DNA of 64,000 bases, from the IMG/VR virus record IMGVR_UViG_3300009164_000038, positions 1 to 64,000 of that record. The stretch is one strand, 5' to 3'. Numbering within the stretch: position 1 is the first letter of the stretch; every line of letters starts with the position of its first letter. Shown one piece after another: positions 8,148 to 36,723 of this stretch. The position numbers and the translations under genes were made by a program. Below the pieces are notes generated by a model, which saw nothing but the letters and a program-made list of their open reading frames with translations, searched no databases and had not been told where the DNA came from. This stretch comes from a virus.

Positions 8148-9746
8148 ATGTTTGTATTTGACCTTTTTGAATCCCAAGCAACCCACATTGTGGTTATTTA
8201 CCCAGGAAGGTTCCAGCCGTTTCATAAAGGGCATAGTGCGGTTTTTAACGAACTGCAAAGAAAATTTGGTCGTGATAATGTATTCATTGGTACTAGTAAT
8301 AATGTAGATCTACCTAAAAGTCCATTTAGCTTTACTGATAAAGTACAGCTAATGCATGCCGCAGGTGTACATAACGATCGTATTGTTGAAGCCAATCAAC
8401 CTTACGAAATTCAAGATTATGCAAGAATATTAGGATTTGATCCTAGTAAAACAATAGCCATTTTTGCTGTAGGCGAACCAGATAAACAACGACTAGAAGT
8501 TGATAGTGTCTATACACAATTTACACCCAAACCGAAAAAAGACGGGTCACCCAGGAAGTCCAGAATACCGCCTGGTAAAAATGTTGGTGATCTTAAACCA
8601 TTCTTAACATTTAAATCCATTGCAGAATCAACTACCGCAGACAAACATAGCTATGTAATAGTTGTAGCAGAAAAACCAGCACAGGTTAATATCAATGGAA
8701 AGACATACGATGCTAGCCATGGCACTGAATGCAGGATGTTATGGAATATGGTGCGGGAAGATGAAAATGCCAGTAAAGAATTCTTAACACAATTATACGG
8801 GCAAGCAACCCCTGAGTTGGTACATATTTTTAATAAAATACCATATGACCCAGTTGTTGACGCTGCAACTAACTTAGAAGAAGATTTTAAACAACGTGTA
8901 ACAGACTACAGACCTTATAAATATGCCAGCGAAATTATAAAATTTACAAGAACGTTCTTAGACCCCGAGTCAGATCCTGAAGTTGAAAAAGATACTAGGG
9001 AATTAGTAGAGTTAGCACGATTATTTGCAGAAAGGGGGCTGAATGCAGGACGCCTTGCCTTTTTAAAAATGTCTGATACCAACAGCAATCTAGCAAAAAA
9101 ACTTGTTCAATACTTGTCACGCTCCGAGCTCGATCCCGAAGGCGATCTTGTAGATCCAAATTGGGACGATGTCAATGACTATACCCCTATACAAGAAAAA
9201 CCATACGAAGGTCACCTTGCAGAAAAAGTAGCTGTGGAGTTGGTAAAATATGCAGAAAGAATGAAGCGATTGTCTTTGCTGCAACACGATCCAAGACCCA
9301 CGCCAGACGAAGAAGAATGGATGGAATTACGTAGACTATATGCAGCGCGAGCACATTTTTCTAGTCTTGCAGCAAAGGAATATGCTAAAAGTAAAGAAGA
9401 CGGAGATCTGTTTTCTAAACGATTGGCTATCACTAATGATAGATTATATGCTGCCGAAGATGTAAAACAAGCAATTGTAATATTCTTTAATAAGTTAGAA
9501 AATAAAGTAACAGAAGGCATTACACCACCAGACCAATTTTTGAATAAAGCAGAGCGTGTTAAAAGCGGCGATGTTGTTTGGTGGAAAGGTAAACCAGTAG
9601 GAATAGCTACTGGTGAAGTTAAAAACGATAAAGTATTGTTTACCCCTAATAAGAATACAGGAATCGAGTCCTGGACTAGCCTTAATAACTCAGTGGCTAG
9701 TTTACCCATTGATCAAGTTATCATCAAGTCCAACAGTGCGTATTAA
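8148..9746 (+). CDS. nucleotidyltransferase-domain virion-associated protein
   Basis: 532 residues. Residues 12-150 form a cytidylyltransferase-like (HIGH superfamily) domain: the strand IVVIYPGRFQPFHKGH carries the HxGH motif, followed by VFIGTSN and SPFSFTDK. Family members transfer NMP groups (as in NMN or phosphopantetheine adenylyltransferases); the substrate here is unknown. The remaining two-thirds is helical and charged and resembles no known domain; a small beta-rich end (about 460-532) has VVWWKGKPVGIATG. The first ten residues, MFVFDLFESQ, look like a T4 capsid-targeting sequence (hydrophobic, then x-E before a small residue). It opens an operon under a late promoter, consistent with a protein packaged in the virion. 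Confidence 0.75.
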   Translation: MFVFDLFESQATHIVVIYPGRFQPFHKGHSAVFNELQRKFGRDNVFIGTSNNVDLPKSPFSFTDKVQLMHAAGVHNDRIVEANQPYEIQDYARILGFDPSKTIAIFAVGEPDKQRLEVDSVYTQFTPKPKKDGSPRKSRIPPGKNVGDLKPFLTFKSIAESTTADKHSYVIVVAEKPAQVNINGKTYDASHGTECRMLWNMVREDENASKEFLTQLYGQATPELVHIFNKIPYDPVVDAATNLEEDFKQRVTDYRPYKYASEIIKFTRTFLDPESDPEVEKDTRELVELARLFAERGLNAGRLAFLKMSDTNSNLAKKLVQYLSRSELDPEGDLVDPNWDDVNDYTPIQEKPYEGHLAEKVAVELVKYAERMKRLSLLQHDPRPTPDEEEWMELRRLYAARAHFSSLAAKEYAKSKEDGDLFSKRLAITNDRLYAAEDVKQAIVIFFNKLENKVTEGITPPDQFLNKAERVKSGDVVWWKGKPVGIATGEVKNDKVLFTPNKNTGIESWTSLNNSVASLPIDQVIIKSNSAY

Positions 9747-9783: not shown

Positions 9784-10746
9784 ATGAAACCTATAGATTT
9801 TATACCCGAAAAACACCCAATTGTCCAAGCAGCTGAGTCTATGCATATGGACCACGAAGTACAAATGGCCAGAGAAGAATGTTATCATTCTGCATCAAAT
9901 GCCATGGAACTGCATAGAATGCTTAAAAAAATCAGCGAGGAAGATGGTATACCGGGGTGGGCAAGCGAAAAGATAACTTTGGCGAATGATTACTTACGTA
10001 ATGTAAAAGAATGGTTAGAATACGAATTAGGTTCTCATATGGAGAACAAAGTTGCCGACGAGAACATGAATACTCTTGGCATTGTAGAGGAAGGCGATTA
10101 TCCAGACGGCTCCTCTATCAAAACACCCGGTGCTAATGAGTGGAAACAACAATACCAACAAGCAGTCATGGCTGTAAAAAATGCCAAAACACAGCAAGAG
10201 TATGAAGCCGCTAGTAACAGAGCCGGTCGTATTAAAGATTTACTAGCAAGCAAAGGTATTCAAGTTGGTCCTGTATTAGGTCAGCAAAGTGTGACGGAAG
10301 CTGATATGAACCGTAGAGGATTCCTTGGGCGCGCTGGTGCAGCCGCAGCAGTAGCAGCAGCACCTGGGTTAGCAAAAGCAGCCGATCAGACCGATCCAAA
10401 TAAATTAATGGCATCTATGCTAATGGGTGGTGAGTATAAGGAATTTGATCTAACACCAATGATAGAAAAATATAATTGGGGAGGCGCACCAAAACAAGTT
10501 ATTATACAGGCCGACAAATGGTTAAGTAATTTTTTAAGACAACGTGGTAACATGTATTCTAATCTAAAAATTAAATATAAAGGCATCACAATGAACTCTA
10601 GTAAAATAGGCGATGTAGATGCGCCAGATGCAGAATTTGAATCAACGGCAGGTGCTAGTTCAAGTGGTGGTATGGCAACTAATATGGGTGGACAACAAGC
10701 AGGTGAATTGTTTGGTGGCCGTCCCAAGTCAAGGACCAGCAAATGA
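9784..10746 (+). CDS. virion-associated protein with an internal Tat signal peptide
   Basis: 320 residues. The N-terminus MKPIDFIPEK resembles a T4 capsid-targeting sequence. The first 170 residues are helical and charged. At residues 175-200 lies a textbook twin-arginine signal: MNRRGFLGRAG, an Ala-rich hydrophobic core and GLAKA before AD. It is preceded by SVTEAD, a plausible prohead-protease site (V-T-E). The methionine of this signal (ATG 10306) has its own ribosome site GACGGAAG (10293-10300) five bases upstream, so a 146-residue exported form could be made by internal initiation. The C-terminal domain is small, with a Gly/Ser-rich tail. Function unknown; the gene end overlaps the next start (ATGA). 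Confidence 0.7.
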   Translation: MKPIDFIPEKHPIVQAAESMHMDHEVQMAREECYHSASNAMELHRMLKKISEEDGIPGWASEKITLANDYLRNVKEWLEYELGSHMENKVADENMNTLGIVEEGDYPDGSSIKTPGANEWKQQYQQAVMAVKNAKTQQEYEAASNRAGRIKDLLASKGIQVGPVLGQQSVTEADMNRRGFLGRAGAAAAVAAAPGLAKAADQTDPNKLMASMLMGGEYKEFDLTPMIEKYNWGGAPKQVIIQADKWLSNFLRQRGNMYSNLKIKYKGITMNSSKIGDVDAPDAEFESTAGASSSGGMATNMGGQQAGELFGGRPKSRTSK

Positions 10747-11283: not shown

Positions 11284-14200
11284 ATGTATGTATTAGATAT
11301 GTTCAGCGATGACGATCGTGAATTTTTAGGTCAGATTAAAAATAAAACAATTCAAACCGAAGACAAAGAAGCAAAAGCATACGACCTTTCCACATTGGAA
11401 AAGAAATTCGGAACGGCTGTTGCATACGATGCTGCATTCCTTAAACCTGCCGCAATGACCAGAACCGACAAAGAAGGCAAAGTACACAATTTAATCAGAG
11501 GTAAAAACGGAACTTACGCTGATAAAAAAGAAAAAGAAACTATAGAAGATAAATTTAAAGAAATATTAAGTTACATAGATCCAGATAATTCAGAAGTTAC
11601 TGCTACTATCAGTACCGACGGCGATACAAATGTATTAAGAATTACACATAACGGTAAGACTACAGAAAAAACAACACCCAATTTATTAAAGGCAGTTGAG
11701 TACCTTGAAGATATGGGACTTGTTAAGAACGAGTCTGAAGTAAACGAAGCATTATTTCCGGGAAGTGAACTAGGAAATAAACTCAGAAATGCAGATTCGT
11801 TTATGCACGACACCGAGTTAAACAAAGCATTAGGGGTTGGTGTAGGGGCAGGATTAACTGGTTCCACTGCTGGTGTTACTATGGCAAGCTCTGGCGGGGG
11901 TATTGCTTTATTTGCTCCGGCACTAGGTGCAGGATTGCTGACAGGAGCAATGGCAGTATTAGGTGGAGTAATAACTTACAAAACTCTTAAATGGCTAGCC
12001 AGTAAAGTATTTGGTACAACAGAGGAAGCATTGGCTTTTGCAAAAGCACATCTTGCAGCCGCTAAACAAGGTGCGCAACAGTTTGAGTGGAATGGAAAAC
12101 CATATCCAGTTAAAGTTAAAGATCAAAAACAAATTGCAAATCTTGAAATTCAAATTAACGATTTAAGTAGCAGAGTAATGAACGAAGGCGAATTTAGAGA
12201 CTTCCCAGGCAGTGCAAAAGTCGCAGTACCAGATGACGTTGTCAAAGGTAATATTAATTCAATCGATAATAAAATAGCCAAATTAAAAGCTGACATGGCA
12301 AAGCTAATAGATCGCGCCCACTCCGGAGATCAGTCTGCTAGAAAGCAATTGGCACAAATTGATGCTCAAAGAAAATTAAAAGAGTTTGCACCAGATGAAG
12401 GTGGCGGAGACGAGAAACAATATCTATTACAATTAGCAGACCAAATGGCTAATGCTATGTATGGGCCCAATAAAAATGCACAAGCAACAAAAGATATAAA
12501 AAGTAAGATTGTTGCTGCTGGAGGTGATGTAAAGATTTCCTATAACAACGATAGTACCTTTAATGTAGTAATGTATCACCCAACATATTTTAAACAAGGG
12601 CATCTAATTAGATTAGTTGGCAACGGAGATCAAGTTGACGAAAGCACAAAATCTGTACATCGTATTAGTTTAACTGTTACAGACCCTAATCACGCAATGG
12701 TTAGCAAACGTAAAGAAACTATACAAAAAACTGTGAAGGTAACTAGCGACAATCGTGATAAGGCAATTAAATCTGCCATTGCTCACTATCGCAAAAAAGG
12801 TTATAAAGTACACGACCATCACTATATAGGTACCGGCGAGCACAGTGTAGCAAAGGATCAATTGAATGAATTAGATATGTTTGCACCTCGCACAGTTTAT
12901 TTCAAAATGGCCGACGGTAATTATATTAAAGCAGATTATAGAGGAAGTGAAGGATTGGGCGGGCATACAGCATACGACAATGTAACTTTTACATCAATGT
13001 CTTGGGTGCCACCTAATACTGCTAGTACATTAGGACTTGATAAATTTTTAGCAAAAGGGTCTGATCCAGACTTAGGTACGGCTGGACAAAATGCACAAGG
13101 TATTGTAGGCACTAACTCCGCTGGCGAAGGCCCATTTGGTAACAGAACTATAGATGTAGTAGATTTTGTAAACGGTAAACAAGATACAGTTCCATTACAA
13201 CTAAAAACTCAAGTAATGCAATGGGTACAAAAAAATCAATCTAAACCTCAAGCACCGGCACAAGGTGTGGCAGAGGAGTGGAGCCAAAAATACAAGAACA
13301 GTATCAACTGTAGTCACCCCAAAGGGTTCAGCCAACGAGCACATTGTGCTGGCAAGAAAAAACACAACGAATCAGTAGAGATGGAAATGGTGTGTGAAGA
13401 CTGCGGCATGTGTCAAACACACGGCAACTTGAATGAGATTAAGAAAGGTGCCAAAGATAGCAACGGATTTACTCGTTGCTGGCCAGGCAAACATGCAGTA
13501 GGTACTAAGAAAGGTAAGAATGGCGGCCAGGTTCGCAACTGTAAACCTAATGAAGGTGTGGCGGAAGGCTCCGAAGAAGATATGAGTAAAGAAGTCAAGG
13601 CAATGGCCACAGGTACCTGCCCACATTGCCATGGTCCTGTAAAGAAAAAAGAACACCCAACGCTAACACAATATCATTGTGCTAAATGCGGTATACGGGG
13701 AAGTATTGACAAGCAAGGTGTGGCGGAAGGCAAGGGGCTAGCCAAGAAGGTAAAAGTTGTCAAAGGCGAACACGCTGGTAAGACCGGTTGGATTAGAGAA
13801 ATTAAGCACGGTGCCTTTAAAGGTGCCCCAAAAACCTATTACATTGACCTAGACGATGGCGGGCAAGCCAACAATCTACCTGCTACAGCATTACGTTTGG
13901 TTAAAGAGCAAGGTGTGGCGGAGGGCGTATCGAATAGTTCTGTTATAAGTGCCATTGTTAAGGGCATTACAGAAAAACGACCAGATTTACTAAAATATGG
14001 GTCTGATCGTGTAAGTGATGCTATTAATTCTGTTGCAGGCATGGTTGGAAACAATGCACAAGGTATTGAATCGAATAATTTAAATAGCTGGATTAAACAA
14101 GTCGAACGCATACTAGCACAACAAATAGACGAAGGTAAACTAACTGCAAACGATTCCCCAGACACATGGATTAAACGTTTCCAGTCTTCCACTCATCCTA

Positions 14201-14994
14201 ATCTAAGTGGCAAAGATCCAGAAACATTAAAAAAAATGGCGCTAGCTGCACGTAGCCGTATGTTGAATAAAACACCATCGTTGCCTAAATCAAAACCTGT
14301 TAACGGTAATTACTGGTGGCAAGATAAAAACGAATCTGCCGAACCTGCTAAAATGAGCATGCGCGATTATATTAAAGAAGCAGATCGACTGCACGACCTG
14401 ATGCAACATTACGATAAAATTGGTGACGAGACCAACTATCAAAAAGCCAAGGCTGCATACTTAGAATTAGAAGACAGTGCCCGCAATGGTATGATTCCTG
14501 AGGGCGAAGAAATTAAATCTGGCAGACCGCGTGTACGTAAAGTTAATATCATGAGACCGGACGGTAGCAAGGGCGAAAGATTTGAAGTGTTAAATCATTC
14601 AGGTGTACGTGTTGGTCCATTATTTGATGATGCAAAATGGGCTAAAGAATATCTACAGCGCCACTATCTAAAATTAATAAACTTAGACGAAGAAGCATCA
14701 TCTAACCCAACTGATACTGTCACCATGGATGTTCCTATGCTATTGCGTGTAATGGAATTTGCTAGAGAAGATGCAAAAACTGACTTAGATTTGCACGATG
14801 TGGCAGAAAAACTAGTAAATCTAAGTAGTAATGGTAATACTCTGACCATGAAAGACTACGATCAAGTTGTACCGGCTACCAATGAGCCTGATACACAAGA
14901 GCAACCATATGAAGAATCTAAAACAGAAACCAAAAATGTAGTTGGTGGAAGATATTGGGACTCTGCAGAGAAACGTTGGCGAGATCAAGAATAA
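11284..14994 (+). CDS. 1236-residue modular protein with GVAEG linkers
   Basis: A beads-on-a-string protein. It begins MYVLDMFSDDD, similar to the other N-termini of this operon. Residues about 180-240 hold a Gly/Ala-rich hydrophobic pair that could be a membrane hairpin. Later modules include a region with KLKEFAPDEGGG, one starting LNELDMFAPR (about 530), a Cys-rich SINCSHPKGFSQRAH module followed by CEDCGMC (about 675-720), a zinc-ribbon-like CPHC-x-CAKC module (about 778-802) and a KOW-like basic module (about 820-875). Modules from residue 660 on are separated by four GVAE or GVAEG steps that fit a prohead-protease consensus. I infer a polyprotein packaged in the head and cut during maturation. 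The enzymatic role, if any, is not visible. Confidence 0.65.
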   Translation: MYVLDMFSDDDREFLGQIKNKTIQTEDKEAKAYDLSTLEKKFGTAVAYDAAFLKPAAMTRTDKEGKVHNLIRGKNGTYADKKEKETIEDKFKEILSYIDPDNSEVTATISTDGDTNVLRITHNGKTTEKTTPNLLKAVEYLEDMGLVKNESEVNEALFPGSELGNKLRNADSFMHDTELNKALGVGVGAGLTGSTAGVTMASSGGGIALFAPALGAGLLTGAMAVLGGVITYKTLKWLASKVFGTTEEALAFAKAHLAAAKQGAQQFEWNGKPYPVKVKDQKQIANLEIQINDLSSRVMNEGEFRDFPGSAKVAVPDDVVKGNINSIDNKIAKLKADMAKLIDRAHSGDQSARKQLAQIDAQRKLKEFAPDEGGGDEKQYLLQLADQMANAMYGPNKNAQATKDIKSKIVAAGGDVKISYNNDSTFNVVMYHPTYFKQGHLIRLVGNGDQVDESTKSVHRISLTVTDPNHAMVSKRKETIQKTVKVTSDNRDKAIKSAIAHYRKKGYKVHDHHYIGTGEHSVAKDQLNELDMFAPRTVYFKMADGNYIKADYRGSEGLGGHTAYDNVTFTSMSWVPPNTASTLGLDKFLAKGSDPDLGTAGQNAQGIVGTNSAGEGPFGNRTIDVVDFVNGKQDTVPLQLKTQVMQWVQKNQSKPQAPAQGVAEEWSQKYKNSINCSHPKGFSQRAHCAGKKKHNESVEMEMVCEDCGMCQTHGNLNEIKKGAKDSNGFTRCWPGKHAVGTKKGKNGGQVRNCKPNEGVAEGSEEDMSKEVKAMATGTCPHCHGPVKKKEHPTLTQYHCAKCGIRGSIDKQGVAEGKGLAKKVKVVKGEHAGKTGWIREIKHGAFKGAPKTYYIDLDDGGQANNLPATALRLVKEQGVAEGVSNSSVISAIVKGITEKRPDLLKYGSDRVSDAINSVAGMVGNNAQGIESNNLNSWIKQVERILAQQIDEGKLTANDSPDTWIKRFQSSTHPNLSGKDPETLKKMALAARSRMLNKTPSLPKSKPVNGNYWWQDKNESAEPAKMSMRDYIKEADRLHDLMQHYDKIGDETNYQKAKAAYLELEDSARNGMIPEGEEIKSGRPRVRKVNIMRPDGSKGERFEVLNHSGVRVGPLFDDAKWAKEYLQRHYLKLINLDEEASSNPTDTVTMDVPMLLRVMEFAREDAKTDLDLHDVAEKLVNLSSNGNTLTMKDYDQVVPATNEPDTQEQPYEESKTETKNVVGGRYWDSAEKRWRDQE
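13261..13926 (+). repeat. four dispersed copies of an 18-base GVAEG-coding repeat
   Basis: Near-identical units of the form CAAGGTGTGGCGGAAGGC occur in frame at 13261-13278, 13552-13569, 13714-13731 and 13909-13926. DNA identity beyond what the peptide needs suggests duplication or recombination that shuffles the modules between them. Confidence 0.85.
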
Positions 14995-25071: not shown

Positions 25072-25782
25072 ATGAGTGAAACAGACAACAAAGAAATTTA
25101 TCTCGGCGATCATATTCGCTCTAAGATGAAACGCGATAACAAACGATTCTGGGCAGGCGATAATATTAGCGAATATATCAGCGGATTGGATAAAGACATT
25201 TTAATTGACGAAGCTACACTAGCATTTGAAACTGTACTGGATAGATTATTAATTGATCGTGAAACAGATCCTAATAGTAAAGGTACTGCACGTCGATTAG
25301 CTAAAATGTATTTTAATGAAATTATGGAAGGTAGATATGAACCAGCACCGAATGCAACGGCTTTTCCAAATGATTCAGCAGATAGATACGAAGGCATGCT
25401 TGTGGTTAGAAGTGAACTACGCAGTATGTGTAGCCATCATCACCAGCCTGTATCTGGTATCGCTTATATTGGGATTATCGCCGCAGAAAAGCTCATTGGT
25501 TTGTCTAAGTACACTCGTATTGCTCATTGGTGCGCTCGTCGTGGTACTTTGCAGGAAGAACTGGCCAATGACATTGCTAGAGAAATCCAAAAAGCTACAG
25601 GAGCAACAGACCTAGGTGTTTATATCCAAGCTACACATGGATGCTGTGAGAATCGTGGTATCATGGCACATAGCAGTCTAACTCAAACTACTGTGCTTCG
25701 AGGTGCATTTCAAACAGATCAAAGCACCAAGAAGGAGTTTTTTGATAACATCAAACTACAGCAGGAGTTTGCGCCGCGATGA
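25072..25782 (+). CDS. folE: GTP cyclohydrolase I
   Basis: 236 residues (E. coli FolE is 222). It turns GTP into dihydroneopterin triphosphate, the first step to folate or to 7-deazaguanine. The zinc and substrate motif MCSHHHQPVSG lies near residues 119-129 and the second cysteine in HGCCENRGI near 188-196; the LIGLSKYTRIAHWCARRG stretch between them is the family's conserved helix region. No host-like biotin or folate neighbours, but queD, queE and dpdA are near, so deazaguanine synthesis is the likely use. The ribosome site CGGAG (25058-25062) precedes the ATG; the end overlaps the next gene by ATGA. Confidence 0.93.
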   Translation: MSETDNKEIYLGDHIRSKMKRDNKRFWAGDNISEYISGLDKDILIDEATLAFETVLDRLLIDRETDPNSKGTARRLAKMYFNEIMEGRYEPAPNATAFPNDSADRYEGMLVVRSELRSMCSHHHQPVSGIAYIGIIAAEKLIGLSKYTRIAHWCARRGTLQEELANDIAREIQKATGATDLGVYIQATHGCCENRGIMAHSSLTQTTVLRGAFQTDQSTKKEFFDNIKLQQEFAPR

Positions 25783-27950: not shown

Positions 27951-28225
27951 ACGCCAGAGAAAAAGAAGTAATGGACATTCTTCAAGAGGAATGTGCAGAG
28001 GTAATTCAAGCAGTTAGCAAAATTAATCGATTTGGTGCTGATAATGTAAAACCGGGTAAACCTAAAACTAATCGAGAACATCTCGAAGAAGAATTGGGCG
28101 ATATGCTCGCAATGATTGACATCATGCTTGAATTGGGTGTAATATCCATAGACAACTTAGAAATTGCAAAAAAAGCCAAGATTGTAAAACTTAAAAAATG
28201 GTCTAACATTTATATACCACTATGA
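27947..28225 (+). CDS. mazG: MazG-like nucleotide pyrophosphohydrolase
   Basis: 92 residues, a single MazG domain. The metal-binding motifs EECAEVIQA (about 13-21) and EELGDMLAMID (about 48-58) are intact. Such enzymes cleave NTPs, dNTPs or (p)ppGpp to NMP and pyrophosphate. Between queD and queE, with ATGA overlaps on both sides, it may act on pathway or modified nucleotides, preventing free modified dGTP, or lower ppGpp as proposed for other phage MazG proteins. Confidence 0.85.
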   Translation: MNAREKEVMDILQEECAEVIQAVSKINRFGADNVKPGKPKTNREHLEEELGDMLAMIDIMLELGVISIDNLEIAKKAKIVKLKKWSNIYIPL

Positions 28226-29088
28226 GCAAAATTAAAATAGCAGAACTGTTCTACAGCATACAAGGTGAAGGACGTTACATGGGTGTACCGTCTGTATTCT
28301 TACGCACATTTGGATGTAATTTCAAATGTGCAGGGTTTGGTATGCCACGCGGAGAATTAAGTATGGAGGCTGCTGGTATTGCAGCTACACATTCATTGGT
28401 TACCCCTTTTCAAAAGTACGAAGAGCTTCCGTTAGTAAGCACAGGCTGCGATAGCTATGCTAGTTGGGATCCAGCATTTAAAGATCTAAGTCCAATGTTA
28501 ACGACAGATGCAATTGTAGAACGCATTATGGAAATACTTCCGCATGGTGAGTGGCGCGATGAGCATTTGGTTATCACCGGAGGCGAACCATTGCTGGGAT
28601 GGCAACGTGCTTATCCAGATTTATTAAATCATCCCAAGATGGCCGGCTTGAAAGAAATTACATTTGAAACCAATGGTACTCAGAAACTTGCTCTAGACTT
28701 TGCTTTGTATTTGCACATATGGAAATCACATCATGATCAAGACTTTTGGCGTGAGATTACCTTCTCAGTAAGTGCCAAATTGCCTTGTAGTGGTGAGAAG
28801 TGGGAAGAAGCTATTCTACCCGAAGTAGTTTGTGAATATGAAGAATACGGCACAGCATATTTAAAGTTTGTTATTGCCACACAGGAAGATTTTGAAGATG
28901 CAGAACGTGCCATTGCTGAATATCGTACAGCAGGATTTACAGGGCATGTGTATCTAATGCCAGTGGGCGGTGTTGAAAGTGTGTATGCATTAAACAATCG
29001 TAATGTGGCATTGTTGGCAATGAAACACGGACTACGGTACAGCGATAGGCTACAAGTACCGTTATTTAAAAATGAGTGGGGTACTTAA
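28222..29088 (+). CDS. queE: QueE-like 7-carboxy-7-deazaguanine synthase (radical SAM)
   Basis: 288 residues (bacterial QueE about 210-225). It would convert 6-carboxytetrahydropterin to CDG. The start SIQGEGRYMGVPSVFLRTFGCNFKC is typical. The [4Fe-4S] cysteines are unusual: C33 and C37 (CNFKC) stand about 40 residues before the third, in STGCDSYASW (about 75), so a long insertion splits the usual triad. Then ITGGEPLLGWQ (about 119-129) for SAM and FETNGT (about 151-156). The insertion explains the greater length. It overlaps mazG by ATGA. Confidence 0.85.
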   Translation: MSKIKIAELFYSIQGEGRYMGVPSVFLRTFGCNFKCAGFGMPRGELSMEAAGIAATHSLVTPFQKYEELPLVSTGCDSYASWDPAFKDLSPMLTTDAIVERIMEILPHGEWRDEHLVITGGEPLLGWQRAYPDLLNHPKMAGLKEITFETNGTQKLALDFALYLHIWKSHHDQDFWREITFSVSAKLPCSGEKWEEAILPEVVCEYEEYGTAYLKFVIATQEDFEDAERAIAEYRTAGFTGHVYLMPVGGVESVYALNNRNVALLAMKHGLRYSDRLQVPLFKNEWGT

Positions 29089-34284: not shown

Positions 34285-35385
34285 ATGGCTACTCAGATTT
34301 CAGATGCACGTACAGTTACTCCAGTTGAGGCACGTCGTGGTCTCATGCGTTGTTTTAAGAAACAACGACCTGTGTTCTTTTGGGGTCCCCCGGGAATTGG
34401 TAAGAGCGAGCTGGTAGCTGGCATTACTGAAGACTTGGGCGGGCATATGATTGATCTGCGTCTAAGCCAGATGGATCCAACTGACCTGCGCGGCATTCCT
34501 TTCTTCAACAAAGAAAAAAGTAAAATGGATTGGGCTCCTCCTATCGATTTGCCCGACGAAGAAATGGCCAGTCAGTATCCTATTATTGTTCTGTTCCTTG
34601 ATGAGCTAAACTCAGCGGCTCCAAGTGTGCAGGCAGCGGCTTATCAACTTATTCTAAACCGTCGTATCGGCAAGTATGTATTGCCTAAGAATGTTGTTAT
34701 GGTTGCGGCTGGTAATCGCGAAAGCGACAAAGGTGTTACTTTCCGTATGCCTAGTCCATTGAGCAATCGTTTTATTCATATGGAACTACGAGTAGACTTT
34801 GAATCCTGGCAGACATGGGCAGTTAACAACAAGATCCATAAAGATGTGGTTGGTTACTTGAGTTTTGCTAAACAAGACTTGTTCGACTTTGATCCACGCT
34901 CTAGTACACGGTCCTTTGCTACACCACGTTCGTGGGTCTTTGTTAGCGAACTTCTAGACGATGATGATGGCATGGACTCTGGCACTGTTGACTTGATCTC
35001 TGGTGCAGTAGGCGAAGGGCTTGCAGTTAAGTTTATGGCTCATCGTAAAGTAGCAGGTCAGATGCCCGACCCAGTTGAAGTGTTGAAAGGTCGTATTACC
35101 GAACTCAAAATTAAAGAGATCAGTGCTATGTACTCTTTGACTATCAGCTTATGCTATGAGCTCAAAGATTCTTTTGATAAACTGGGTCCAAAGTCAGAAG
35201 AGTGGATTAAGATGACGGATAATTTCTTCCGCTTCATCATGGATAATTTCACTACTGAATTAGTAGTTATGGCATCGCGTATTGCTATTACCACATACGG
35301 CATTCCGTTTGTGCCTGGCAAGATCAAGAACTTTGACGAGTTCCATAAGCGTTTTGGTAAGTACGTGGTTGCCGCAGTTAAATAA
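34285..35385 (+). CDS. MoxR-type AAA+ ATPase
   Basis: 366 residues. Walker A FFWGPPGIGKSEL (about 33-45), Walker B IVLFLDELNSA (about 99-109), followed by VQAAAYQLILNR and VMVAAGNRESD (sensor 1 region), all typical of the MoxR branch. MoxR ATPases act with von Willebrand-factor-A proteins as chaperone pairs to load metals or remodel complexes, as in RavA-ViaA. The VWA partner is the next gene after a terminator and its own promoter. Ribosome site GAAAGG (34273-34278). Confidence 0.9.
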   Translation: MATQISDARTVTPVEARRGLMRCFKKQRPVFFWGPPGIGKSELVAGITEDLGGHMIDLRLSQMDPTDLRGIPFFNKEKSKMDWAPPIDLPDEEMASQYPIIVLFLDELNSAAPSVQAAAYQLILNRRIGKYVLPKNVVMVAAGNRESDKGVTFRMPSPLSNRFIHMELRVDFESWQTWAVNNKIHKDVVGYLSFAKQDLFDFDPRSSTRSFATPRSWVFVSELLDDDDGMDSGTVDLISGAVGEGLAVKFMAHRKVAGQMPDPVEVLKGRITELKIKEISAMYSLTISLCYELKDSFDKLGPKSEEWIKMTDNFFRFIMDNFTTELVVMASRIAITTYGIPFVPGKIKNFDEFHKRFGKYVVAAVK

Positions 35386-35412
35386 AAAAGGGGCGCAAGC
35401 CTCTTTTTTATC
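35384..35412 (+). terminator. rho-independent terminator
   Basis: AAAAAAGGGGC (35384-35394), GCAA tetraloop, GCCTCTTTTTT (35399-35409) with one G-T wobble. It ends the moxR transcript in its last stop codon. Confidence 0.85.
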
Positions 35413-35441
35413 TTGACAAACGGATAAGAATAGTGTATAAT
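35413..35441 (+). promoter_or_regulatory. perfect consensus sigma70 promoter
   Basis: TTGACA (35413-35418), 17 bases, TATAAT (35436-35441); it lies one base after the terminator and drives the VWA gene at 35464. Confidence 0.85.
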
Positions 35442-35463
35442 ACAATTTTAACCAGGATATATT

Positions 35464-36723
35464 ATGTCTGACACTACCCTAGCAGAAAAGCAAAAAGTCG
35501 TTACAGTTACTAATCCCAAGATTGATGCAATTGCCCGCGAAAAACTTATTACAGCTCGTGTAGGTTTGTTATTGCGAGCTGGGTTCTTTGGTAACTTGGC
35601 AACACGGTTAAAATTAATCAATGGTGATAGTTGGTGCTCTACTGCCGCTACCGACGGTCGTAATTTTTGGTACAATAGCGAATTTATTAATCGCCTAAGT
35701 TTAAAAGAATGCGAGTTCTTGTTTGGGCATGAAGTGTTGCATGTGGTATATGATCATTTGGGACGTCGTGAAAATCGTGACCCGGTGCTTAGTAACATTG
35801 CCGCTGACTATTGCGTTAATCAAGATCTAGTAGATCACAATATTGGTCAAAAAATTACCACTGTTCCAATTCTACTAGATCGCAAGTATCGCGGCATGAG
35901 CTACGAGGAAGTCTACGACGACTTGTATAAGAATGCAAAAAAGATCGACATTAAAAAATTAATTGATCAAATGTTGGATGAGCATCTAGACGAAGATGAC
36001 AGTGATGGCAATGGTGATGGTGATCAAGACGGCGATGGCAACGGTCGGCCTAAACTGAGCAAAGACGAACGCAAAGCCATGCGTGACGAAATCAAAGAAG
36101 CAGTATTGCAGGCCGCACAGGCTGCTGGTTCTAATGATTTGCCCGATGGTGTCAAGCGTCTAATTAAAGATATGACTGAGTCGGTTATCGACTGGCGCGA
36201 ATTATTGTTGCAACAGATTCAAAGTACAATCAAAGATGACTACAGCTTTATGCGAGTTAACCGCAGAGGCTGGCATATGGATGCTATCTTGCCAGGTACC
36301 AAGTATGGAGAAACTGTTGATATCTGTGTAGCCATTGATACTTCAGGTAGTATTGGTAACGAAGAACTTAAAATATTCTTAGGAGAAATCCAAGGCATTA
36401 TGGATTCTTATACCGACTACAAAATTAAAGTGTGGTGTTTTGATACTGATGTTCATAATATGCAAGAATTCACACAAGACAACATGAAACAAATTTCCGA
36501 GTACGAGCCAGCAGGTGGCGGTGGCACTTTGTTTGAAGCCAACTTTGAATTCATGAAAGAGAACGGAATTGAGCCTAAGAAGTTGGTTGTGTTCACTGAC
36601 GGTTACCCAAATGGGTCTTGGGGTGATGCCAACTACTGCGATACTGTTTGGATTATTAAAGGTAATGAATCTGCTCAACCACCGTTTGGTATTTGGGCTC
36701 ACTACGAGGATGCAGTCAAATGA
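35464..36723 (+). CDS. VWA-domain protein with HExxH-like head (DUF2201 type)
   Basis: 419 residues. The N-terminal domain carries HEVLH in FGHEVLHVVYDH (about 87-98), the pattern of the predicted metallopeptidase domain of the DUF2201 family. A linker of Asp/Gly repeats (about 175-195) separates it from the VWA domain with the MIDAS motif DTSGSIG (about 291-297). Such proteins partner with MoxR ATPases. The gene is expressed from its own consensus promoter right after moxR, keeping stoichiometry flexible. It overlaps the next gene by ATGA. Confidence 0.85.
   Translation: MSDTTLAEKQKVVTVTNPKIDAIAREKLITARVGLLLRAGFFGNLATRLKLINGDSWCSTAATDGRNFWYNSEFINRLSLKECEFLFGHEVLHVVYDHLGRRENRDPVLSNIAADYCVNQDLVDHNIGQKITTVPILLDRKYRGMSYEEVYDDLYKNAKKIDIKKLIDQMLDEHLDEDDSDGNGDGDQDGDGNGRPKLSKDERKAMRDEIKEAVLQAAQAAGSNDLPDGVKRLIKDMTESVIDWRELLLQQIQSTIKDDYSFMRVNRRGWHMDAILPGTKYGETVDICVAIDTSGSIGNEELKIFLGEIQGIMDSYTDYKIKVWCFDTDVHNMQEFTQDNMKQISEYEPAGGGGTLFEANFEFMKENGIEPKKLVVFTDGYPNGSWGDANYCDTVWIIKGNESAQPPFGIWAHYEDAVK

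Follow-up and report, generated by a model that had tools for sequence, protein, structure and literature searches.

The stretch of DNA analyzed here (the window, 64,000 nucleotides) is the first 64 kb of the 199,181-base virus record IMGVR_UViG_3300009164_000038, the 199 kb genome of a large phage from fresh water that is related to T4. At 9784-10746 it holds an open reading frame (ORF) that carries a twin-arginine translocation (Tat) signal peptide in its interior. The protein reads ...GQQ-SVTE-ADMNRRGFLGRAGAAAAVAAAPGLAKA-ADQTDPNK..., where Met175 corresponds to nucleotides 10306-10308, the twin arginines (RR) are residues 177-178, and residue 198 (nucleotide 10377) is the last of the AKA site. 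The Tat segment would become N-terminal only if the precursor were cut after VTE. The parts of the ORF are as follows; in sequences given below, a slash marks a cut or predicted cut.

9784-10746, plus strand: module-bearing ORF of 320 amino acids, read from sequence comparison as a modular precursor of the packaged, internal-protein type
9784-9810, plus strand: N-terminal MKPIDFIPE, which ends at I-x-E and by inference is like the T4 capsid-targeting peptides (ipII/ipIII, MKTYQEFIAE/A)
9811-10080, plus strand: N-terminal domain, residues 10-99, kept by homologue comparison in the homologous loci L001-L005, none of which has the Tat module
10081-10287, plus strand: variable helical or linker segment, residues 100-168, which L001 lacks or has exchanged for other sequence
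10288-10299, plus strand: S-V-T-E, residues 169-172, with a predicted prohead-protease cut after Glu172
10300-10377, plus strand: Tat signal peptide ADMNRRGFLGRAGAAAAVAAAPGLAKA, residues 173-198, which closes with AKA, a signal-peptidase-like site
10378-10635, plus strand: passenger domain, residues 199-284, predicted by AlphaFold to be a small beta-beta-alpha-beta-beta fold
10636-10743, plus strand: C-terminal tail FESTAGASSSGGMATNMGGQQAGELFGG..., common to L001, where it is preceded by K-V-T-E

The preliminary description of this DNA had claimed a full Tat signal in the middle of the protein, and this was borne out for residues 175-198, right after S-V-T-E: the trimmed window peptide scores 21.6 bits with the NCBIfam Tat-signal model TIGR01409 (cutoff 16.7). 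Longer window sequences score 16.7-16.9 bits, i.e. at the cutoff, and Pfam PF10518 gives 12.5 bits, under its cutoff of 22.7, which the relatives L067, L068 and L131 pass. Taken alone, the Tat signal of the window is thus a borderline call that is convincing through its family, in which TIGR01409 was reported at E<0.05 for 57/57 module peptides. Pfam and PHROG searches with the full ORF were uninformative.

A first pattern scan, for M-x-RRxFL with V-x-E ahead of it, turned up four distinct modules of this kind, in 6 of 9 loci. An unconditioned DNA scan, which sought RRGFL[KR]GxGA only, did not require an upstream Glu and was cleared of duplicates, yielded 66 distinct phage modules, which fall into 57 clusters when grouped at 80% identity. 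Most of these are internal (54/66 lie more than 40 amino acids into the frame), 56 of the 66 have a Glu at -3 to -5 from RR, and 52 show [LIVM]xE ahead of the signal. A count of 68 modules with Glu out of 78 includes loci fetched by patterns that name Glu, and 56/66 is the unbiased figure. The recurrence of [VIL]xE plus Tat in dozens of other phage contigs leads us to reject a chance motif. An AXA-like site lies 15-35 residues after RR in 66 of the 68 E-bearing modules; as a mark of the packaged class it was discarded as not discriminating, since all 10 modules without E have one too.

The residue two before Glu (P3) points to the nature of the motif. Among all 68 E-bearing modules, some of them fetched with Glu in the search pattern, it is L in 32, V in 21, I in 8, M in 1 and T in 6, where the LIVM background is 19%. 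Glu occurs in three registers, EID-RR, EDxS-RR and EADxN-RR, and the hydrophobic P3 tracks it in each; because P3 moves with Glu and not with RR, the motif is read as a protease site and not as part of the Tat n-region. In a bacterial control on GTDB genomes, a similar but stricter pattern recovered 11 Tat signals, located at a plausible start or close to one, and none (0/11) had [LIV]xE. On this control, small as it is, and on the tracking of Glu by P3 we reject Glu as a normal feature of the Tat n-region. Internal Tat-like segments without upstream Glu (e.g. NIDLSRRGFLKGVGATVATAATAKVPKL) were also seen in ORFs of 352-2202 amino acids (L105, L107, L111, L117, L118, L125 and L136), in whose records no T4-type protease or capsid gene was found; these long ORFs may encode injected proteins of polyvalent type.

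In T4, gp21 cuts the internal proteins (IPs) and Alt, which bear a capsid-targeting sequence (CTS) and pass into the host (PMC7411985, PMC9026906), and the cut sites of Alt are ITE and LTE (PMC5694885). The T4 sequences (NC_000866) begin with MKTYQEFIAE/A in ipII and ipIII and with MELITE in Alt. Frequent starts of the Tat ORFs include MRATEFITE, MKANEFLTE, MKINEIITE, MRIHEIINE and MNFTELFEG, and by a crude regular expression the MKPIDFIPE of the window ORF likewise resembles a CTS with a gp21-type end. The same expression finds CTS-like N-termini in 23 of 52 Tat ORFs versus 77 of 618 other ORFs, an odds ratio of 5.6; P-values for this enrichment and for the survey counts ignore relatedness and are indicative only. 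In two short frames the Tat signal follows a CTS-like start at once: L131 (132 amino acids) reads MKINEIITE/GMNRRGFLKGAGAVMAGGTLSGC, where the signal leads into a lipobox-like LSGC as in a Tat lipoprotein-like form, and L113 reads MRIHEIINE/DISRRGFLKG.

The head genes of the genome are T4-type, with a prohead protease at 86780-87421 of the genome (phrog_207, 2.7e-57), a major capsid protein at 88537-89724 (phrog_138, 3.6e-99) and likewise a portal gene (phrog_213); phrog_148 had no match in this genome. In this phage and six relatives, the major capsid protein has L-x-E at the matching place in the N-terminal region (7/7 aligned), which is consistent with a head protease that cuts at [LIV]xE. 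Six module-bearing contigs of 263-525 kb (the records of L016, L022, L058, L061, L110 and L121) have T4-type protease and capsid genes and 1-2 Tat modules each, and the whole 199-kb genome studied here has one. Neither gene was detected in the 9 contigs without the Glu, and the remaining module contigs either are fragments or gave no protease or capsid match. The T4-type head protease, the capsid L-x-E and the frequency of [LIVM]xE before the signal lend support to the earlier suggestion of a prohead-protease cut, here predicted, that would unmask the signal.

The preliminary description had also proposed an internal start at ATG 10306, by which a short Tat precursor would be made in infected cells with no packaging. 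The window does offer this ATG at a workable spacing from GACGGAAG (10293-10300, five bases before it), which contains GGAAG, and Met precedes RR in some relatives too. Among the 56 E-bearing unconditioned modules, however, the position two ahead of RR holds I in 35 and M, L and V in 7 each; Met at this position is not conserved. GGAAG stands before ATG 10306 because NCG-GAA-GCN codons are typical of VxE linkers generally: of 67 [GS]VxE sites with no Tat downstream, 57 have G as the last base of the codon that precedes Glu, and CGGAAG is present at 4 of 11 VxEAD(M/L/I)xRR sites. The ribosome-site-like bases are therefore a by-product of linker codons and are not kept before Tat signals, and the conserved [LIVM]xE would be superfluous to internal initiation. 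With neither Met nor these bases conserved, we reject the internal start, which we consider highly improbable.

The linker is itself repeated at the DNA level:

10285-10301, plus strand: degenerate copy, with 3 mismatches, of CAAGGTGTGGCGGAAGG, the linker DNA for QGVAEG in these phages

The window holds 5 matches to CAAGGTGTGGCGGAAGG versus 0.08 expected, at sites that include 13552, 13714 and 13909. Across contigs, 35 of 56 QGVxE sites are identical over 18 bases, a constancy well beyond codon bias (GTG has a frequency of 0.21 and GCG of 0.13), and each of the 216 near-copies that the loci hold keeps to the QGVAEG frame. This suggests module shuffling by recombination at linkers, or some nucleotide-level role for the linker DNA.

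Passengers of several relatives match Pfam domains: TonB_2 behind the Tat signal in L021, L104 and L106 (5e-19, 2e-17 and 2e-18), LysM (3e-10) with an SLT transglycosylase (4e-9) in L068, GH19 (6e-17) in L065 and Peptidase_M48 (3e-6) in L079. The other passengers, that of the window included, gave no match. As judged by these matches, the LysM, SLT, GH19, M48 and TonB passengers are envelope-type domains and would fit export. An HD-like domain (HD_4 1e-5, just under the curated score) lies downstream of the Tat passenger in the same ORF of L048, and likewise in L053 and L054, which are near-identical to each other.

Passengers of this kind also bear on a different explanation, by which the proteins are ordinary late secreted lysis or envelope proteins that use Tat without any packaging, the Glu motif being cut by another protease or not at all. 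A lysis role is possible for the LysM plus SLT or GH19 passengers, and the Tat signal is N-terminal in L067, L068, L078, L113 and L131. We hold this to be unlikely, because the predominantly internal position of the modules would leave an uncut signal well inside the chain, tens to hundreds of residues in, because the xxE cut is kept even in N-terminal forms (MKITE/IDRR, MRIHEIINE/DISRR), and because T4-type head proteases are present in the phages. Alternatively, the RR-hydrophobic segment could tether the precursor to the inner membrane at T4-type prohead assembly, with no export. T4 heads do nucleate on the inner membrane (PMC5694885), and the presence of just 1-2 modules per genome would suit such a role; a tether would nonetheless leave both the cut just before the signal and the envelope-type passengers unexplained, and we give it very little chance.

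Close relatives of the window ORF differ in whether they hold the module. L001 has the same start, with ~85% identity over residues 1-99, and shares the N-terminal domain and the C-terminal tail; L002-L005 share the N-terminal domain, and RR is absent from them. The nearest homologues of the window passenger (L044, L047 and L049) are 77-80% identical to it and all lack the Tat signal, as do the closest passenger homologues L044-L050 as a group; in L049, the passenger stands directly after a CTS-like start, MKSLRDYINLIEG. Passenger homologues with a Tat signal (L023, L025-L028 and L040) are 42-47% identical to the window passenger. In these comparisons the Tat module comes and goes, and since the closest homologues are signal-free, the tag is optional for the window passenger. 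Absence of RR from homologues had been named beforehand as a result that would speak against the signal; RR is indeed absent from some, L001 and L044-L050, but as the module is recurrent in the family we read its absence from these relatives as the mark of a removable module and not of a chance motif. Gain and loss among close relatives would equally be expected of passive hitch-hiking, in which host-captured Tat fragments lie functionless in shuffled polyproteins, and the sharing of module codons by several phages indicates recombinational spread. Yet over 57 clusters and in varied passenger contexts, the modules retain RR, the hydrophobic core, an AXA-like site and, ahead of the signal, [LIV]xE, which makes hitch-hiking quite improbable.

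The window passenger itself gave no informative sequence match. In its AlphaFold model, pLDDT (predicted local distance difference test) is 81-90 per block over residues 31-100, which fits a small, compact domain, and a disordered signal and tail lower the whole-model mean to 70.5. Among viral proteins, the best match came from UniProt A0A6J5T2Q7, a protein of 250 amino acids from an uncultured Caudovirales phage with 94% identity over the modeled 113 residues; that entry carries an automatic Tat label only, with no described processing or function.

What the sequences themselves show is a recurrent module with its [LIV]xE registers, the head genes of the phages, and envelope-type passengers in relatives. 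Our favored reading, which we consider probable, is that the feature is a removable module (head-protease site, complete Tat signal and small passenger) in the precursor of T4-type ejection proteins, to be packaged, cut, injected and exported through Tat. In this scheme, the N-terminal capsid-targeting peptide would bring the precursor into the prohead, where a gp21-type protease would cut after [LIV]xE and leave a passenger that starts ADMNRRGFL.... The cut pieces would leave the head with the DNA and reach the host cytoplasm; the folded passenger would then be exported by the host Tat system, and a signal peptidase cut after AKA would leave it in the periplasm, where it would probably alter the envelope early in infection (e.g. 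in superinfection exclusion or periplasmic counter-defense). We infer packaging, cutting, injection, export and benefit from the T4 precedent and the logic of the parts. The wider proposal, a two-step delivery in which head maturation unmasks Tat signals in packaged polyproteins and injected effectors with interchangeable passengers (wall hydrolases, M48 peptidase, TonB/TolA-like domains) are re-exported to act early in the periplasm, stands in our judgment at about an even chance.

Several points weigh against this reading. The whole module is gone from L001, which lacks helical-segment residues, the Tat signal and the passenger, and the window passenger may not need to act in the periplasm, given that its closest homologues are without a signal. 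Its C-terminal boundary in the window (DAE/F) is atypical for [LIV]xE, and it had no fold match in the PDB. CTS-like starts, by the crude expression, occur in just 44% of Tat ORFs. Neither the window protein nor its Tat-passenger segment had a significant tblastn match among isolate phages, and 50,697 phage records gave nothing that matched the consensus module peptide (no isolate). A working Tat system in the host is assumed.

The precursors resemble T4 IPI-IPIII and Alt in their CTS-like N-termini, predicted [LI]xE-type cuts, T4-type head protease and capsid genes, small variable passengers and expected host entry with the DNA. They differ in being multi-module, with many predicted internal cut sites, and in that a cut can expose a Tat signal; periplasmic export of T4 IPs or Alt is not described in the reviews PMC9026906 and PMC3012670. 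The polyvalent proteins of phages and conjugative elements (Iyer et al. 2017, PMC5512222) are likewise large, multidomain and proposed to be co-injected with DNA, and a modular architecture of several domains, parted by predicted cut sites, is seen in the module ORFs. Unlike polyvalent proteins, these have export signals and predicted head-protease sites between domains, and the text of PMC5512222 is silent on Tat, the periplasm and TonB. Head-protease processing after xxE, predicted here, is shared with the ejection proteins of SPN3US and phiKZ, whose motifs are different (A-X-E and S/A/G-X-E, respectively) and for which no export signal is reported (PMC5694885). The signals have the RRxFLK core, Ala-rich region and AXA-like site of bacterial Tat signal peptides (TIGR01409); unlike those, they are internal to long ORFs, with [LIV]xE upstream instead of a start Met.

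In the literature searched, which is only part of the field, we found no account of Tat signals joined to phage internal proteins. A delivery route by Tat signals unmasked in head maturation would be a previously undescribed one. Injected phage proteins are usually viewed as acting in the cytoplasm or during DNA passage. If a protease-unmasked Tat tag is indeed used, an incoming virion could place folded effectors in the host periplasm; this would account for envelope-type domains (LysM, transglycosylase, GH19, TonB/TolA) inside long multi-module phage ORFs, and would predict that large T4-like phages of fresh water have a class of envelope effectors carried in by the virion.

The genes on either side of the module-bearing ORF share features with other Tat ORFs:

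8148-9746, plus strand: ORF with a cytidylyltransferase-like domain and the CTS-like start MFVFDLFES, from profile and regular-expression searches
11284-14994, plus strand: ORF of 1236 amino acids with four GVAE linkers

By inspection, nucleotidyltransferase-like N-termini also head the Tat ORFs L026, L051 and L098 elsewhere, and the Cys/His-rich module (WSQKYKNSINCSHPKGFSQRAHC...) of the ORF at 11284-14994 is common to the Tat ORFs L014 and L022. Farther along the window, 25072-25782 encodes GTP cyclohydrolase I (Pfam 1e-38) and 28222-29088 a radical-SAM protein (4.9e-6, under the curated score), which are possibly part of a 7-deazaguanine DNA-modification pathway. At 34285-36723, an AAA ATPase is followed by a DUF2201 putative metallopeptidase/VWA-like protein.
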